Source: Nocardia farcinica (GTDB taxonomy: Bacteria; Actinomycetota; Actinomycetes; Mycobacteriales; Mycobacteriaceae). From it: a stretch of 64,000 nt of DNA. Every line of letters starts with the position of its first letter. Within the stretch, counting starts at the first letter, position 1. This document shows, piece by piece, positions 56,334-64,000 of this stretch. Under the pieces are notes generated by a model that saw only the letters and a program-made list of their open reading frames with translations, made no database searches and had not been told where the DNA came from. The stretch is taken from the NCBI RefSeq assembly GCF_001182745.1, contig NZ_LN868939.1, positions 434,001 to 498,000 of the forward strand, given 5' to 3'. Both the position numbers and the translations under genes were made by a program.

Positions 56334-58628
56334 GTGTCCGTCTATCTGTACAGATTCGGAAAGTTCGCTTTCCGCCGGAAATGGATAGTGCTTCCCGCCT
56401 GGCTCGTCCTGCTGGTCGTGGTCAGCGGCCTCGGCGCGCAGCTGGGCAAGCCGATGAGCAACGACTTCAGCATGCCGTCACTGCCGTCGGAACGCGCCAA
56501 CGAGATTCTCGACAAGCATTTCCCCGGCGCCTCCGAGGCCTTCCAGCTCGACGCCGTCACCGGCACCTACGTCATCGCCGCCCCCGAGGGCCAGCAGCTG
56601 ACCGACCCGGCCAACCGGGACGCCGTCAAAGCCCTCGTCGGACAGCTCGATCAGCTCGACATCGTCGACCACAGCAAGCCGGTCACCGATCCGATCACGG
56701 CCGCCGAAGCGATGGGCTGCCTGGCGAATCCCGACCCGGCCACCTGCAGTGGCGCGCCGCTGAACGTGCTCAGCGCCGACGACCCGAACTCCGTCGCGGT
56801 GATCAGCGTCCCCTTCACCATCCCCGGCTTCGCCGACATCACCGACGAGGACCGGCAGAAGGCGACCGCCGTGGCCGACGCGGCCCGTGCGGCCGGCCTG
56901 ACCGTGGAGATGAGCGGTTCGATCGCCCAGGAGAACGTGCAGCCCGGCGGCAAGTCCGAGATGATCGGCATGATCGTGGCGCTGTTCGTGATGATCATCG
57001 GCTTCGGCGCCGTGGTGGCCGCCTTCGTGCCGATCATCACCGCACTGGTCGGTGTCGGCGCGGCGAGCTCGGTGGTGATGCTCGGCACCTCGGTCATCGA
57101 GATTCCCAGCTTCACCAGCTTCCTCACCCTGATGATCGGCATCGCGCTGTCCATCGACTACGCGCTGTTCATCGTCTCCCGCTACAAACACGAACTCGCC
57201 GTGCAGGATTCACCCGAGGAAGCCGCGGGCATCGCGCTCGGCACCGCGGGTTCGGCCGTCGTGTTCGCCGGTCTCACCGTCATCATCGCGCTGGCCGGGC
57301 TGAGCATCGTCGGCGTCCAGTTCCTCACCTTCATGGGCCTCGGTGGCGCCATCGCCGCCGCGTTCGCGGTGATCACCGCCGTCACCCTGATGCCTGCACT
57401 GCTGGGTGCGTTCGGCCGGTTCCTGTTCAAGCCCAAGCTCCCGCTGGTGGCCAAGCACGATCCCGAGGACGACAGCGTCGTCACCAACGGCATGCGCTTC
57501 GGCAAGCTCATCGGCAAGGCGCCCTGGGTGGCGCTGGTGCTCAGCGTGGTCGCGCTCGGCGCGCTGGCCGCGCCCGCGCTCAACCTGAACCTCGGCCTGC
57601 CCGGCGAGGACAGCATGCCGCCGGAGACCACCGTCCGTAAGGCCTACGAGCTGCGCACCGAAGGCTTCGGCGAGGGCAGCAACGGCGTGCTCAACATCGT
57701 CGCCGATCTGAGCGCGGTGCCCGCCGAGCAGCGCCAGGAGGCGGTGAACGCACTGCGCGACCGCCTCGCCTCCTACCCGGAGATGGACTACGTCACCGCA
57801 CCGCAGTTCAGTCAGGACGGCGCGGGTGTGATGCTCGACGGTGTGCCGAAGGCCGGCCCGAACAACCAGGCCACCAAGGATCTGGTGCGCGAGGCCCGCG
57901 ACGCCGAAAGCGAGCTGAAGGACCGGTACGGCATGGAATACGGCGTCACCGGCGCCACCGCCATCTACGCCGACATCGACCACGTGCTGCTCAGCAAGAT
58001 CGCCCCCTACCTGGCGATCGTGGCGGGCGCGGCCTTCCTGCTGCTGATCCTGGTGTTCCGCTCGATCCTGGTGCCGCTCACCGCCGCACTCGGCTTCCTG
58101 CTGTCGATGGCGGCCACCTTCGGCGCGACCGTGCTGATCTTCCAGGAGGGCGCGCTCGGCCTGATCGAGGATCCGCATCCGCTGGTGAGCTTCCTGCCCA
58201 TCATGCTGATCGGCTTGGTGTTCGGCCTGGCGATGGATTACCAGGTGTTCCTGGTGACCCGCATGCGCGAGGAGTTCGTGCACGGCAAGTCACCGAAGGA
58301 GGCGGTGGTCTCCGGCTACCACCACGGCGCCCGCGTGGTGACCGCCGCGGCGATCATCATGATCTCGGTGTTCGCCTCCTTCATCCTCGAATCCGACGTC
58401 ACCGTGAAGTCGTTCGGCTTCGCGCTCGCCGCGGGCGTGCTGTTCGACGCTTTCGTGGTGCGCATGGTGGTGATCCCCTCGCTGCTGGTCATCATGGGCA
58501 AGTGGTCGTGGTGGATCCCGAAGTGGCTCGACCGCGTGCTGCCGGACATCGACGTGGAGGGCACCAAGCTGCGTGCCATCCAGAACGGTTCCGCCGAGCA
58601 GCCCAAGGAGCCGGTCGGCGTCGCCTGA
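56334..58628 (+). CDS. MMPL/RND-family membrane transporter, copy 1
   Basis: A 764-residue RND-type transporter with two repeats of six helices. The first helix is KWIVLPAWLVLLVVVSGLG. Proton-relay type segments are SIDYALFIVSRYKHELAVQD (first half) and GLAMDYQVFLVTRMREEFVH (second half). The two large extracytoplasmic loops follow helix 1 (about 40-200) and helix 7 (about 420-580). GTG 56334 has AGGAGA upstream. It exports lipids, siderophores or drugs; the substrate is unknown. A near-identical second copy lies downstream, and a TetR gene with a palindromic operator lies upstream. Confidence 0.93.
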   Translation: MSVYLYRFGKFAFRRKWIVLPAWLVLLVVVSGLGAQLGKPMSNDFSMPSLPSERANEILDKHFPGASEAFQLDAVTGTYVIAAPEGQQLTDPANRDAVKALVGQLDQLDIVDHSKPVTDPITAAEAMGCLANPDPATCSGAPLNVLSADDPNSVAVISVPFTIPGFADITDEDRQKATAVADAARAAGLTVEMSGSIAQENVQPGGKSEMIGMIVALFVMIIGFGAVVAAFVPIITALVGVGAASSVVMLGTSVIEIPSFTSFLTLMIGIALSIDYALFIVSRYKHELAVQDSPEEAAGIALGTAGSAVVFAGLTVIIALAGLSIVGVQFLTFMGLGGAIAAAFAVITAVTLMPALLGAFGRFLFKPKLPLVAKHDPEDDSVVTNGMRFGKLIGKAPWVALVLSVVALGALAAPALNLNLGLPGEDSMPPETTVRKAYELRTEGFGEGSNGVLNIVADLSAVPAEQRQEAVNALRDRLASYPEMDYVTAPQFSQDGAGVMLDGVPKAGPNNQATKDLVREARDAESELKDRYGMEYGVTGATAIYADIDHVLLSKIAPYLAIVAGAAFLLLILVFRSILVPLTAALGFLLSMAATFGATVLIFQEGALGLIEDPHPLVSFLPIMLIGLVFGLAMDYQVFLVTRMREEFVHGKSPKEAVVSGYHHGARVVTAAAIIMISVFASFILESDVTVKSFGFALAAGVLFDAFVVRMVVIPSLLVIMGKWSWWIPKWLDRVLPDIDVEGTKLRAIQNGSAEQPKEPVGVA

Positions 58629-58641
58629 CCGCTCGACACAC

Positions 58642-58674
58642 GCGGCCCCGCATCCGGTCCGGATGCGGGGCCGC
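58642..58674 (+). terminator. Terminator after first MmpL gene
   Basis: GCGGCCCCGCATCC pairs perfectly with GGATGCGGGGCCGC around a five-base loop, 13 bases after the stop. The second MmpL gene therefore probably has its own promoter in the 166 bases that follow. Confidence 0.85.
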
Positions 58675-58840
58675 TGTCGTTCCCGGCCCGGAAATCCTTG
58701 ATCTTTGCGCCCGGCACCGCGCAGACTCGACGGTGTTCGACTCTTCAGATCGGAAATGGTGTTCGTCGACGCGGATGCGGTGACCGCCCGCACGGACATC
58801 GTCCGAGCCGGCTCCACCCGATGACCGTGAGGAGAACGCT

Positions 58841-61132
58841 GTGTCGGTGTTTCTGTACCGGTGGGGGAAGTTCGCCTTCCGCCGCAAGTGGATCGTGTTG
58901 CCGGTCTGGCTGGCGCTTTTCCTGATCCTGGGCGGTCTCGGCGCCCAGCTGCGGGAGCCGATGACCGACGACTTCTCCCTGCCGAACCTGCCCTCCGAGC
59001 GGGCGACGGAGATCCTCGACAAGCACTTCCCCGGTATGTCGGAGGCGTTCGCCTTCGACGCGGTCACCGGCACCTACGTCATCGGCGCGCCCGAAGGCCA
59101 GCGGCTCACCGACCCGGCCAATCGCGAGGCGATCACGGCCATGATCGGCAGGCTGGAGCAGCTCGACATCGTCGATCACGCCGAGCCGATCGTCGATCCG
59201 ATCACCGCCACCGAGCAGATGGGTTGCCTGATCCCCGATCCGGATCCGGCCGAGTGCGGCAGCGCACCGCTGAACGTGCTCAATCAGACCGCGCCCGCGA
59301 CCGTCGCCTACTTCAGCGTGCCGTTCACCATCGCCGAATTCGCCGACATCACCGCGCAGGACCGCGCGGCCGCCTACGGCGTGGCCGATGCCGCCCGACA
59401 GGCCGGGCTCACAGTGGAGATGAGCGGGTCGATCGCGATCGAGGAGGGCGGGCCCAGCGGCAAGGCCGAAATGATCGGCATGGCCGTGGCTTTCGTGGTG
59501 ATGATCGTGGCGTTCGGCGCCATCGTGGCCGCGTTCGTGCCGATCGTCACCGCCGTCGTCGGGCTCGGCGCGGCCACCTCGTTGATCTTCCTGGGCACCT
59601 CGGTGGTCTCGATCCCGACCTTCACCACCTTCCTGGCCTCGATGATCGGCATCGCGCTGTCCATCGACTACGCGCTGTTCATCGTCTCCCGCTACAAACA
59701 CGAACTCGCCGTGCAGGATTCACCCGAGGAAGCCGCGGGCACCGCGTTGGGCACCGCGGGCTCGGCGGTGGTGTTCGCCGGTCTCACCGTCATCATCGCG
59801 CTGGCCGGCCTGAGCATCGTCGGCGTGCGGTTCCTCACCTTCATGGGTCTCGGCGGCGCGGTGGCCGCGGCGTTCGCGGTGCTCGTCGCCCTGACCCTGA
59901 TGCCCGCGCTGCTCGGCGCGCTCGGCCGGTTCCTGTTCACGCCCAAGCTGCCGTTGGTCGCCCAGCACGATCCCGAGGACGACACCGTCGTCACCAACGG
60001 CATGCGGGTGGCCAAGCTCATCGGCCGCGCGCCCGCACTGACCCTGCTGCTGAGCGTGGTCGTGCTCGGCCTGCTCGCCGCGCCCGCGGTGAACCTCGAC
60101 CTCGGCCTGCCCGGCGAGGACTCGATGGCCAAGACCACCACCGTGCGCAAGGCCTACGAGCTGCGCACCGCCGGATTCGGCGAAGGCAGCAACGGCGTGC
60201 TGCAGGTGGCCGTCGACCTCAGCGGGGTACCCGAGGACCGGCGCGCCGAGGCGTTGACCGCGCTGCGCGACAAGCTCGCCTCCTACCCGGACATGGACTA
60301 CGTCAGCCGGCCCACGCCCAGCGCCGACGGCCAGGGCGCGCTCATCAACGGCGTGCCGACCGCGGGCCCGAACGACCAGCGCACCAAGGACCTGGTGCGC
60401 GACGCCCGCGCCGACGAGGCCGCGCTGAACGAGGAGTTCGGCATGGCGTACGGCGTCACCGGCACCACCGCGATCTACGCCGACATCGACCACGTGCTGC
60501 TCGGCAAGATCGTGCCCTACATGGCCATCGTCGCGGGTGCCGCGTTCGTGCTGCTGATCCTCGTGTTCCGCTCGATCCTGGTACCACTGACCGGCGCGCT
60601 CGGCTTCCTGCTGTCGATGGCGGCCACCTTCGGCGCCACCGTGCTGATCTTCCAGGAAGGCCGGTTCGGGCTCATCGACGACCCGCACCCGATCGTCAGC
60701 TTCCTGCCCATCATGCTGATCGGCCTGGTCTTCGGCCTGGCGATGGACTACCAGGTGTTCCTGGTGACCCGCATCCGCGAAGAATACGTGCACGGTGCCG
60801 AACCACGCACCGCCATGATCAACGGCTACCACCACGGCGCCCGCGTCGTCACCGCCGCCGCGGTCATCATGATCTCGGTGTTCGGCTCGTTCCTGCTGGA
60901 AACCGACGCGACCGCCAAGTCGATGGGCTTCGCACTCGCCGCGGGCGTGCTGCTCGACGCCTTCTTCGTGCGCATGCTGCTGATCCCCACGCTGCTCGCA
61001 CTCCTCGGCGACAAGGCCTGGTGGATGCCCAGGTGGCTGGACCGGATCGTGCCCGACATCGACGTCGAAGGGGCGAAACTGCACGCCCTGCGCGCCCCCG
61101 CCGCCGACAAGGAACGCGCGCCCGTGAGCTGA
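58841..61132 (+). CDS. MMPL/RND-family membrane transporter, copy 2 (tandem paralogue)
   Basis: A 763-residue paralogue of the upstream transporter, alike from start (FLYRWGKFAFRRKWIVLPVW) to end. It keeps both DY-containing relay segments (SIDYALFIVSRYKHELAVQD; GLAMDYQVFLVTRIREEYVH). A 100-base stretch (59641-59740) is identical in DNA to 57131-57230 of copy 1. That includes all third codon positions, while flanking regions differ clearly. GTG 58841 follows GAGGAGA. The pair may export different substrates or form heteromers; no evidence decides this. Confidence 0.93.
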   Translation: MSVFLYRWGKFAFRRKWIVLPVWLALFLILGGLGAQLREPMTDDFSLPNLPSERATEILDKHFPGMSEAFAFDAVTGTYVIGAPEGQRLTDPANREAITAMIGRLEQLDIVDHAEPIVDPITATEQMGCLIPDPDPAECGSAPLNVLNQTAPATVAYFSVPFTIAEFADITAQDRAAAYGVADAARQAGLTVEMSGSIAIEEGGPSGKAEMIGMAVAFVVMIVAFGAIVAAFVPIVTAVVGLGAATSLIFLGTSVVSIPTFTTFLASMIGIALSIDYALFIVSRYKHELAVQDSPEEAAGTALGTAGSAVVFAGLTVIIALAGLSIVGVRFLTFMGLGGAVAAAFAVLVALTLMPALLGALGRFLFTPKLPLVAQHDPEDDTVVTNGMRVAKLIGRAPALTLLLSVVVLGLLAAPAVNLDLGLPGEDSMAKTTTVRKAYELRTAGFGEGSNGVLQVAVDLSGVPEDRRAEALTALRDKLASYPDMDYVSRPTPSADGQGALINGVPTAGPNDQRTKDLVRDARADEAALNEEFGMAYGVTGTTAIYADIDHVLLGKIVPYMAIVAGAAFVLLILVFRSILVPLTGALGFLLSMAATFGATVLIFQEGRFGLIDDPHPIVSFLPIMLIGLVFGLAMDYQVFLVTRIREEYVHGAEPRTAMINGYHHGARVVTAAAVIMISVFGSFLLETDATAKSMGFALAAGVLLDAFFVRMLLIPTLLALLGDKAWWMPRWLDRIVPDIDVEGAKLHALRAPAADKERAPVS

Positions 61133-61150
61133 CCCGCGCCGCACCGCGAC

Positions 61151-61185
61151 ACGGCCCCGGCGGAATCACTCCACCGGGGCCGTTT
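61151..61185 (+). terminator. Terminator after second MmpL gene
   Basis: ACGGCCCCGG (61151-61160) pairs with CCGGGGCCGT and is followed by TTT. The gene on the other strand ends about 30 bases further on. Confidence 0.88.
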
Positions 61186-61216
61186 CCGTACGTTCCGCGG
61201 GCACACCCGCCGGAGA

Positions 61217-61417
61217 CTACGGACTGGGCTGCGGCACGTTGCAATCCTCGACCTTCGGGTTCACGCCCATGTAGTTGAGCGGCCCCGCGATCGTGGTGAC
61301 CACAATCGTCCCGAACCCGGCACAATTGACCGGTCCACTGTCGAAGTAGTCGCGCTGCACGCACGCCACCACCCCGATCAACAACCAGATCAGAACAATC
61401 GCACTTCCAATTCTCAT
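61217..61417 (-). CDS. Small membrane or secreted protein with conserved NCAGFGTI and GPLNYMGVNPKV motifs
   Basis: A 66-residue protein. One N-terminal hydrophobic helix (IGSAIVLIWLLIGVVACVQR) is followed by DYFDSGPVNCAGFGTIVVTT and AGPLNYMGVNPKVEDCNVPQ. I recall many near-identical short proteins in Nocardia and mycobacteria, so it is a real conserved family despite its size; the function is unknown. ATG 61417 is preferred; ATG 61432 is possible. It converges with the second MmpL gene. Confidence 0.8.
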   Translation of the reverse strand: MRIGSAIVLIWLLIGVVACVQRDYFDSGPVNCAGFGTIVVTTIAGPLNYMGVNPKVEDCNVPQPSP

Positions 61418-61594
61418 GTGACTCTCGCGCATCGTTCCCACGCGGACGGCTCGGCGGCGCATTCGGCACCACATCCCTTCCCGCTTCCGACCACCGATGG
61501 AATACCCCCTCCTTCCCGATTCACCCGAGAAGTTCCAAATGCGAGGTCCATGGCACCGGGCCCCCGCGCCACACAGCACGGTGGATCGCCTGCT

Positions 61595-61756
61595 GGCCTG
61601 GACGAGCAGGTCACGGCCACTGGCGCGGAGGTGGTGCTACTGCCCTCGTCGGCACATGTGGACGTCGTAACCCTCGATCGCGTGCTGGCAGTAGCCGACG
61701 TGGAGTGCGCGGCGCCCCGCGTGTCGTTCGCGCGGTGGTCGGCCCTCGGCCAGGCC
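61595..61756. other. Apparently inverted 162-base segment bounded by 12-base inverted repeats
   Basis: GGCCTGGACGAG (61595-61606, + strand) and GGCCTGGCCGAG (minus strand, 61756-61745) are inverted repeats with one mismatch. The + strand between them encodes QVTATGAEVVLLPSSAHVDV and then TLDRVLAVADVECAAPRVSF-ARW. This reads as the missing second half of the protein begun on the minus strand at 61879. Both repeats encode GL(A/D)E in the same phase. Inverting the segment on paper joins the halves in frame. The restored frame then shows no stop before the next gene, so the original 3' end is not explained. Confidence 0.6.
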
Positions 61757-61879
61757 CGATACCGACGGGTGATCAGGTCGATACAGCTCGTATCCCAGCC
61801 GGCGCGCCAAGCGACGGACCTGCGCCAGGTCCCATTCCGGTGTCGGCGACAGCGGGTCGATCCAGGCGAATGCGAACAT
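61637..61879 (-). pseudogene. N-terminal half of a small nocardial protein, tail replaced by inverted DNA
   Basis: From ATG 61879, with a strong GAGGAGGGG ribosome site just upstream, the frame encodes MFAFAWIDPLSPTPEWDLAQ, then VRRLARRLGYELYRPDHPSV and SGLAE. After GLAE (at 61745) it enters the inverted segment, and the next ~35 residues (GRPPRERHAGRRALHVG onward) look non-native before a stop at 61637. The head resembles short actinomycete proteins of about 95 residues that I cannot name. It lies upstream of, and divergent from, the XRE/TPR regulator. Whether the present 80-residue form is functional is unknown. Confidence 0.6.
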
Positions 61880-62092
61880 GCCCCTCCTCGTGTCCATGGC
61901 CGAGGCGCCGCCAACGGGACGGTCACAACAACCGGGTAGCGGGCGCTCGGGTCACAGCCTCACGCCGGTGCTGACCAGGCAGAAGTGGCATGAGGGTGGC
62001 ATGGCATGCGTTTGCACGAAGCTAGTGGCACCGGTGGTGGCATTCAGCGGTCCGGCAAGCGCTCCGGCCGGTCGGGGTGGCAGGCTGAATAC

Positions 62093-63268
62093 ATGTCTGC
62101 GGACACGGGGAGGCTGATCCGCCAACTGCGGGTGGCCAAGGGCTGGAGCCAGGGTCGACTCGCGAGCGAACTGTCGAAGTTGTCCGGCTGCACCATGACT
62201 CGCGAGTACATCTCGCGCCATTGGGAGTCCGGGAAGACGGAGCCGTCCGCATTCTGGCTACGCCATATCGCGGCGGCCTTGGATTGCCCGCAGGAACTGC
62301 TGGAGGCCGACGTGAACCGCCGCCGATTTCTCTCCCACCTGGCCGCCACGTCCATCGCTCCCGCTGTGGCTTCCGATCTCCTGTCCCAAGGCTTTTCGAC
62401 ACGCCTGCACGCCGGCGGGCCGACGGTCGAGGAATGGGAAGCCACCCTCGCCCGCTACGGAACCGACTACATGAGCCAGGGCGCCGCCACCATCCAGCAG
62501 CGATTGGCCGCGGATCTGGTTGTGTTGCAACAGCAGCTGGACAGTCCACGAATGTGGGCGATCGCGGCGCGATTGATGACCCTGTTCGCCAAGACCTACC
62601 CCGGCAGCGACGGAAACAAGGCGATCGCGTGGTACCGAATGGCGGCCGAGGCCGCCGACCGTTCGGAGGACATCGACATCCGGGTGTGGGTGCGCGGCCG
62701 CGCCGCGATCGCGCTCGGTTACGAGGGCGCCGCGTTACCGGTCGCCCACACCTTCGCCGACCAAGCTCTCGCCATCTCCGAGCGGAGCAGCCTCGGGCGG
62801 CTGAACTCGCTGTGGGGGAAAGCCCACGCCGCCGTGCTGGAGGGCGATGTGCGCACGGCTCGCGAGCTGGTCGACGAGGGCCGCCGCGAGTTCGACCGGT
62901 CGTACTCGGAGGAACAGACGTCCGACTACGCGGTCCCGTGGTGGCGGGTGAACGTCTTCCTGTCGCTGTTGGCGGCCCGGCTCGGTGACGAGAAGCTCGC
63001 CGTCCAAGCCCAGGAGGACGCCCGTGCCGAACTCCCCGCGCAGCTGCCGCGCTTCGCCACCCACCTGGCGATGCACCGCGGGCTGATGCTGGTCCGCGCG
63101 GGCGATCGGCAGCAGGGCGTCGCGCTGGCCCGCGCCGCCCTCGACGCGCTTCCCCCGGAAAAGCACTCACTCACCCTGCGGATGCTCATGTCCGAGATAG
63201 CCGGGGTCGGAAATCCGGGATCGGCCCAGAGGTTTACGACCGACCCGCGCCTTGATAGGACAACCTGA
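62093..63268 (+). CDS. XRE-family regulator with TPR-like sensor domain
   Basis: A 391-residue protein. The N-terminal helix-turn-helix spans about 5-70 (LIRQLRVAKGWSQGRLASEL; TMTREYISRHWESGKTEPSA). Helical TPR-like repeats form the remaining ~300 residues (IAARLMTLFAKTYPGSDGNK; AALGYEG-type AAIALGYEGAALPVAHTFAD). This is the actinomycete NsdA/BldD-neighbour style of regulator. ATG 62093 is chosen since the DNA-binding domain starts there. Its TGA overlaps the ATG of a 35-residue frame, which in turn overlaps the next gene: a three-gene coupled operon. Confidence 0.85.
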   Translation: MSADTGRLIRQLRVAKGWSQGRLASELSKLSGCTMTREYISRHWESGKTEPSAFWLRHIAAALDCPQELLEADVNRRRFLSHLAATSIAPAVASDLLSQGFSTRLHAGGPTVEEWEATLARYGTDYMSQGAATIQQRLAADLVVLQQQLDSPRMWAIAARLMTLFAKTYPGSDGNKAIAWYRMAAEAADRSEDIDIRVWVRGRAAIALGYEGAALPVAHTFADQALAISERSSLGRLNSLWGKAHAAVLEGDVRTARELVDEGRREFDRSYSEEQTSDYAVPWWRVNVFLSLLAARLGDEKLAVQAQEDARAELPAQLPRFATHLAMHRGLMLVRAGDRQQGVALARAALDALPPEKHSLTLRMLMSEIAGVGNPGSAQRFTTDPRLDRTT

Positions 63269-63375
63269 TGCGCTTCACCACACGCACCACCGGGCTTCTG
63301 GCGGCACCACCGCCGATCCTCGTCCGCGCCGCCGCGCGGATGCACCGCGCCGGCACGCAGGCCCGCAATGCCTAG
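63268..63375 (+). CDS. Tiny translationally coupled frame (35 residues)
   Basis: ATG at 63268 shares its A with the TGA of the XRE gene (TGATG). The TAG at 63373-63375 overlaps the ATG (63368) of the following gene in another frame. The product is basic and Ala-rich (MRFTTRTTGLLAAPPPILVR...). It may be a leader that couples translation rather than a functional protein. Confidence 0.4.
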   Translation: MRFTTRTTGLLAAPPPILVRAAARMHRAGTQARNA

Positions 63376-63577
63376 GCAGGGTCCGCGGCGGACGATGATC
63401 GGCGTGCGGCTCACGGACGAGCAGATCGAGCAACTGGACTGGCGCGCCAACTCGGAGGGCCTGGTGACGAAGGCGGGCGAACCGAACCGCTCCGAGCTCA
63501 TCCGGATCATGATCGCCTACGCCGAGCAGAACATGCCCGCAGACTGGCGGCCGGAGGGGTGGCGCTACGTCGGCTGA
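63368..63577 (+). CDS. Small ribbon-helix-helix-like protein
   Basis: A 69-residue protein. A predicted beta strand (MIGVRLTDEQIEQLDWRANS) is followed by two helices (NRSELIRIMIAYAEQNM), the layout of ribbon-helix-helix DNA-binding or MobC-like proteins. It ends with an aromatic tail (WRPEGWRYVG). It is translationally coupled to the upstream frame and probably acts with the XRE regulator. It converges with the next gene, six bases away. Confidence 0.75.
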   Translation: MPRQGPRRTMIGVRLTDEQIEQLDWRANSEGLVTKAGEPNRSELIRIMIAYAEQNMPADWRPEGWRYVG

Positions 63578-63582
63578 CCGGG

Positions 63583-64000
63583 TTACGCGGTGACGCCGAG
63601 TTGGTTCGCCAGAGCCCGCGCCTCACGCTCGACGAGCCGCCCGCCGTGGGTGACGAGGGCGGCGGCGAGGTTGCGGCCGATGGGGTGGCAGCTGGTCGAT
63701 TCCTCCGAAACCGCGGTCGCGGTGCGCAGGGCACCCAGCGTGCCTATCCAGTCGCGGCGCTGTTCGTAGGCACGTGCGAGCTCGAGCCACAGCCGGGCGC
63801 GGCGGTCCACGCTGGGCACGGCGTCGGGGTCGACCGATGATGCGGCGTCGAGCGCCGAGCCCGCGCGGCGGAGATCGACGTGGACCGAGACCGCGGTGAA
63901 TTCGGCGTTCGCGGTACCGAACAGCGTCCACGGGTGCGCGGTTCCGTTCGGCAGCGCGCGAGCCATCCCCATCGCCTGATCGATGCCGCGCAGCGCGTCA
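63583..64000 (-). CDS. C-terminal part of a second XRE/TPR-type regulator, cut by the window end
   Basis: The frame is open to base 64000, so the N-terminus lies outside. The visible ~138 residues are helical. They include LRGIDQAMGMARALPNGTAH, WTLFGTANAEFTAVSVHVDL and RRARLWLELARAYEQRRDWI, ending EREARALANQLGVTA. This is the tail shared by many actinomycete XRE regulators with TPR-like sensor domains. Its convergence with the XRE-RHH operon suggests a regulatory island here. Confidence 0.75.
   Translation of the reverse strand, partial: DALRGIDQAMGMARALPNGTAHPWTLFGTANAEFTAVSVHVDLRRAGSALDAASSVDPDAVPSVDRRARLWLELARAYEQRRDWIGTLGALRTATAVSEESTSCHPIGRNLAAALVTHGGRLVEREARALANQLGVTA

Follow-up and report, generated by a model that had tools for sequence, protein, structure and literature searches.

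How a gene comes to lie with its two halves on opposite strands is the question raised by a locus in the 64,000-nucleotide stretch of Nocardia farcinica DNA that was analyzed here as a whole (the window). The halves belong to a Nocardia small-protein family of ~97 residues, of which this genome carries about ten whole or broken copies, and they are arranged at the locus as follows.

61745..61879, minus strand: head, the first 45 residues of a gene of the small-protein family, with its ATG at 61879 and a DNA profile match at 61745-61887.
61595..61756, plus strand: tail, from GLxE to ..FARWSALG of the family, with a profile match at 61595-61755.
61637..61879, minus strand: the chimeric open frame that now continues the head, composed of the family head and residues without family likeness.

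The head reads MFAF...SGLAE on the minus strand, from the ATG to 61745, downstream of GAGGAGGGGC, and carries the family sequence WIDP.SPTPEWD..QVRRLARRLGY, while the tail reads GLDEQVTATG...SFARWSALGQA on the plus strand and carries the family sequence GLxEQV..VVLLPSSAHVD..TLDR..A.ADVECAAPR.SF.RW. As the strands are opposite, the two are not in one continuous frame. A DNA profile composed of 26 continuous family genes with their upstream and downstream flanks was run on 61300-62200 and matched the tail on the plus strand (61595-61755, columns 218-378, E 1.8e-38) and the head on the minus strand (61887-61745, columns 86-229, E 2.9e-31). The two parts of the profile complement each other, and the stretch they share is exactly 12 columns long (218-229). 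Judged by these matches, the pairing of head and tail on opposite strands is not due to chance. A preliminary description had proposed a convincing minus-strand head from 61879, a convincing plus-strand tail, and their origin as two halves of one protein; the family matches and profile scores bear out the first two, and the third agrees with halves that are of the same protein type and are joined in continuous homologues. The chimeric frame, for its part, would probably not give a functional protein.

Intact homologues of ~95 residues joining head to tail, for which the preliminary description had proposed a search, are present both in the same genome and in the genus. Within the genome, at E 1e-5 or better and with the target counted each time, the head and the tail have nine matches apiece, and seven other places carry both halves on one strand. 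In five copies the end of the head match and the start of the tail match adjoin to the base on one strand.

C2:499085-499348: continuous copy with head and tail adjoining, only 3.2 kb from the target.
C2:1128058-1128324: copy with head and tail adjoining.
C1:2070890-2071156: copy with head and tail adjoining.
C2:1775745-1776008: copy with head and tail adjoining.
C1:2163584-2163835: copy with head and tail adjoining, frame-shifted near its end.

A head without a tail is found at C2:1777365 and a tail without a head at C1:2157895. The genus survey covered 148 genomes, and for each of the 48 head matches reaching E 1e-9 or better a partner was sought among the 45 tail matches listed. This gave 41 heads with a tail on the same strand (some of these pairs not whole, with gaps between head and tail), six heads without a listed tail, and one with its tail on the opposite strand, which is the target. 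Five of the six are complete head-plus-tail frames (L075, L076, L077, L079 and L080), and the sixth, L006 from the target's own genome, is truncated; a same-strand tail is present for 46 of the 48 heads, and the opposite strand is seen only in the target. A scan of 172 loci gave 115 heads with a same-strand tail, some overlapping one another, and seven opposite cases, all of them overlapping views of the target, with no second case. Its three lone heads were two views of L006 and one head cut by the locus edge, and its three lone tails were L012, L048 and L117. Broken copies were observed as a truncated head (L006:1501-1620, which is C2:1777365-1777484), a lone tail (L012:1501-1644), and a head end with a tail fragment (L048:15771-15926), and their break points differ from that of the target. 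No family name was obtained from Pfam and NCBIfam at E up to 0.1 for both halves and one continuous copy, nor a match from PHROGs at E up to 0.01 for both halves and another copy. PDB sequences gave nothing convincing for the small protein (best of 3 hits, E 0.27), and phage and plasmid collections searched by protein, and plasmids by DNA, gave no match that names it.

The target resembles the family in the sequence of both halves and in the start region but differs in having its halves on opposite strands, its gene end missing and no membrane-protein partner in view. Continuous copies commonly end in ..GGVRR and a stop, and their usual downstream partner is a tiny membrane protein with a WPSDY-type motif at its end, present in at least 18 of the 26 relatives by a simple pattern that overlooks variants; the partner gene is apparently absent from L004 and L071. 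At the target, no profile match beyond column 378 with a score of 5 or more was found on either strand of 61300-62200, and the WPSDY-type pattern was not found in any of the six frames of 61201-61600, where the absence of the partner says little since 8 of the 26 relatives also lack it by pattern. Left of the segment, the minus frame meets no stop over 125 codons and continues into the lipoprotein gene ending at 61217, as anticipated by the preliminary description, in which the restored frame continued without a stop toward the next gene. Because the family gene end was not found and the frame runs into the lipoprotein gene, a flip is predicted to yield no normal gene. The proposal that flipping 162 bases fuses the halves thus survives in part: continuous relatives do join them, but with the end missing the normal gene is not restored.

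The segment is bounded by two short arms.

61595..61606, plus strand: left arm, GGCCTGGACGAG, family codons GLDE, part of the tail.
61745..61756, minus strand: right arm, GGCCTGGCCGAG, family codons GLAE, part of the head.

The arms pair at all but one of their positions (11 of 12, 92%) and are separated by 138 nt, so that both the 12-base inverted repeats at the junctions and the identical phase of GL(A/D)E on the two strands had been read correctly. The columns shared by the two profile matches (218-229) coincide exactly with the 12-nt arm, so that each arm is a copy of the GLxE codons, and the repeat as such is unremarkable: four family codons are present twice. It is 11th of the 23 inverted pairs listed in 1.5 kb. 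None of the 26 continuous genes has such an inverted match to its GLxE codons, the agreement being 2-7 of 12 at the aligned place and never above 8 of 12 across the end region. The inner 6 nt of the right arm (CTCGGC on the plus strand) also agree with the codons for LG that the family has close to its gene end, a 6-nt microhomology that is exact at those codons in 5 of the 26 genes; the outer half, CAGGCC, is not family-like at the gene end, with at most 3 of 6 positions agreeing in any of the 26. As the continuous genes lack the repeat and CAGGCC is not family-like, the repeat is a probable product of the event and not its pre-existing cause, and it was probably created by the rearrangement itself. 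Folding of the segment as single-stranded DNA is ordinary (z -1.43).

The surroundings comprise an island and a conserved neighbor.

61547..64000: left part of an island of ~4 kb that extends to about C2:499502, beyond the window, and has no syntenic counterpart in five relatives.
62093..63268, plus strand: divergent regulator, with HTH_31 above the cut-off and an NsdA-like TPR part below the model cut-off.
61217..61414, minus strand: small lipoprotein-like gene, a conserved neighbor outside the island, with no family match over the cut-off.

The island (C2:495547-499502) carries two HTH/small-protein cassettes where relatives have other DNA. Besides the HTH regulator at 62093-63268 and the continuous copy of the small gene (C2:499085), it holds a second HTH regulator and a ribbon-helix-helix gene. 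The interval from the lipoprotein gene to DNA matching about C2:499502 measures 0.7-15.7 kb in five relatives (L048, L049, L050, L053 and L054), and no match to the regulator was found between the island flanks in any of them. Where the left-hand match stops varies among the relatives, from 61486 to 61546. Because the flanking matches in the five relatives stop on either side, the target is placed at the left end of the island. G099 has 15.7 kb of other genes at this place, including a family fragment (head end and most of a tail), and from the island cassettes together with this fragment in a different insert, duplication, insertion and decay of these cassettes seem to be common. The best relatives of the regulator in other species are 82-85% identical; as a route to an orthologous gene they led to a flanking family member at 3 of 19 other loci, from a more distant subfamily, and two of those three loci have short flanks. 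The second regulator (L047:3584-4807, minus strand), beside the continuous copy, matches PHROG 5823, a phage transcriptional regulator family, over nearly its full length (E 9.6e-81).

Some further sequences near the locus were observed. About 90 nt at and upstream of the lipoprotein gene start on the minus strand (61402-61489) are 76-94% identical in many Nocardia genomes and are mostly kept without the DNA further out, which suggests a candidate conserved leader or promoter; Rfam gave no match at the gathering score in 58000-64000. The DNA separating the broken gene from the HTH regulator has several GTGGCA boxes (61986-62046), a possible operator, and similar boxes were seen upstream of the six regulator relatives inspected (L114-L118 and L120). 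Two very alike genes stand in tandem at 56334-58628 and 58841-61132, a pair present also in L053 and L054, and their products presumably act in MMPL-type transport.

A fixed inversion is the simplest reading of the locus, and we consider it somewhat better than an even chance that the locus arose by a microinversion, recent, now fixed and probably of replication type, in a decayed, non-functional spare copy of the family gene. The 3' end of the minus-strand gene would have been lost inside the inserted island, probably through joining to the remnant of a convergent copy, a step that would have cost both genes their ends, and the tail half would then have been inverted by one local rearrangement at short stretches of microhomology, with template switching or break repair during replication as the likeliest route. 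Such a rearrangement would leave GLxE codons on both sides and so the 11/12 inverted repeat. The origin of both halves in the same gene, the order of events, template switching, fixation and loss of function are all steps that we infer. By comparison with 46 of the 48 genus copies, the tail is inverted relative to the head, a picture that a history without inversion likewise predicts. Both halves are free of stops and frameshifts, and third codon positions account for 66% of the tail's differences from 18 continuous genes (60% within that set of tails), from which the break looks recent compared with family divergence. The corresponding value for the head is 50% (62% among those heads), and the head may be slightly more relaxed than the tail.

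Published microinversions offer a partial parallel. In the passages drawn on from a study of yeast, template switching between short inverted repeats can equalize the arms and invert the spacer in coding genes, in nine of ten spacer inversions the arms had been perfect beforehand, and switching favors short spacers, with substitutions of 2-5 bp (PMC8604942). For human-chimpanzee microinversions, microhomology-mediated break-induced replication with flanking repeats of 3-75 nt is proposed in the corresponding passages of PMC8755829. On the inversion reading, the target is like these cases, as described there, in being a short in-place inversion with imperfect inverted repeats, which is possible in coding DNA and in which the event can make the arms match (PMC8604942, PMC8755829). 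It differs in the segment, which is ~138-162 nt here where the yeast substitutions span 2-5 bp and the human-chimpanzee cases 17-33 nt (PMC8604942, PMC8755829), in having additionally lost a gene end, and in that the comparison is with relatives and not with a direct ancestor. Since the published inverted segments are much shorter, template switching is a mechanism that we infer for the target.

The alternative that survives best does without any inversion: two or three copies, convergent or in tandem, would have stood here, and the tail of a plus-strand copy would have been joined to the head of a minus-strand copy by deletions at microhomologies, namely CTCGGC at the right junction and TGGnCGA or GGCC at the left. 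We regard this history as possible but rather unlikely. Two copies are expected to bring the GLxE 12 nt in both halves, as is seen, and among 325 pairs of continuous genes, 60 agree at 11/12 or better over these 12 nt. The island has another continuous copy, broken copies are known at L006, L012 and L048, and the differences of the head look more relaxed than those of the tail (50% versus 66% at codon position 3). Adjoining the tail there is, moreover, a further candidate remnant.

61577..61598, plus strand: probable third piece of the family, matching codons T(V/L)DRLLA from the middle of a tail, with 20 of 22 bases as in the paralogue C2:1775745-1776008.

This fragment is the best non-self genome match of 61530-61610 (E 0.0375), and only 4 of 1478 control 59-mers from the window score as high against the family on either strand. 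It is nearer to the paralogue (19/21) than to the target's own tail (16/21) and does not extend further leftward, where 1153 of 2000 controls are as good. The fragment thus probably belongs to the family and, if real, would mean that another plus-orientation copy was formerly here; it equally allows joining of a convergent copy followed by tail inversion, and deletions without inversion. Likeness of the DNA directly left of the tail arm to the head (plus strand) or the gene end (minus strand) was rejected, 28% and 24% of random 18-mers, respectively, being equally good.

The kinship between head and tail was compared by rank correlation. For protein the target gives 0.40, against 0.44 (sd 0.19) for true pairs and 0.32 (sd 0.22) for mismatched ones, and for DNA it gives 0.29, against 0.46 (sd 0.21) and 0.33 (sd 0.23). 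When 27 tails are ranked for the target's own head, its own tail comes 16th on protein and 19th on DNA, where true tails average 9.4 and 8.8. The test leans mildly toward two source genes, most visibly on DNA, with halves of only about 45 codons each. What speaks against a history without inversion is that one copy must have been truncated at its 5' side and a second one at its 3' side, both at one and the same codon, and that up to three copies are required; L006, L012 and L048 break elsewhere.

An assembly or sequencing error at a paralogue site appears very unlikely: the family is multi-copy, but the genome's own paralogues, whose heads are 61-71% and whose tails are 44-84% identical to those of the target, are too different for collapse, and the contig is 2.66 Mb long.

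Inversions inside genes have reportedly been described by Chanin et al. 2024. An active intragenic inverton, in which a recombinase would flip 61595-61756 and so toggle the protein, is a shade less credible here than an assembly error. In the part of the literature drawn on, invertons have repeats of 10-40 nt that are bound by an invertase, a range that includes the 12-nt arms (PMC11892184). The target shares with the invertons described there an intragenic segment flanked by inverted repeats and in-phase codons at the arms, GLxE agreeing in phase on both strands (PMC11892184). It differs from them in that no integrase or resolvase match is near, the repeat is not conserved, being absent from the 26 continuous relatives, and a flip would supply neither the family's gene end nor a normal gene; no second case was found in the 172 loci. 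Arm length and phase are the only inverton properties that could be shown for it. The preliminary description had looked to site-specific recombinases in the genome for support, and matches do exist (4 to the resolvase family PF00239 and 17 to the integrase family PF00589), but none lies in the window or, for the two types searched, within 120 kb of the locus, the nearest on the contig being ~121 kb away for PF00589 (C2:374570-374989) and ~489 kb away for PF00239, though a recombinase may act from a distance. Of the two options it had left standing, a fixed inversion or a phase-variable switch, the former is retained as the simplest reading, and the latter lacks a conserved repeat, a gene end and a nearby PF00589 or PF00239 match. 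Least probable of all is a Nocardia intragenic inversion switch whose arms are the gene's own codons and which would turn a regulator-linked small protein on and off, or fuse it to the lipoprotein when flipped.

The cassette to which the broken gene belongs, an HTH regulator with a ~97-residue protein and often a tiny membrane protein, is much duplicated in Nocardia and unnamed in the family libraries tried. Within it, the locus offers a clear example of a short rearrangement that splits a bacterial gene into opposite-strand halves, and it illustrates that a 12-nt inverted repeat can be the by-product of such an event and not a recombination site. Cases of this kind could mislead inverton searches based solely on repeats.
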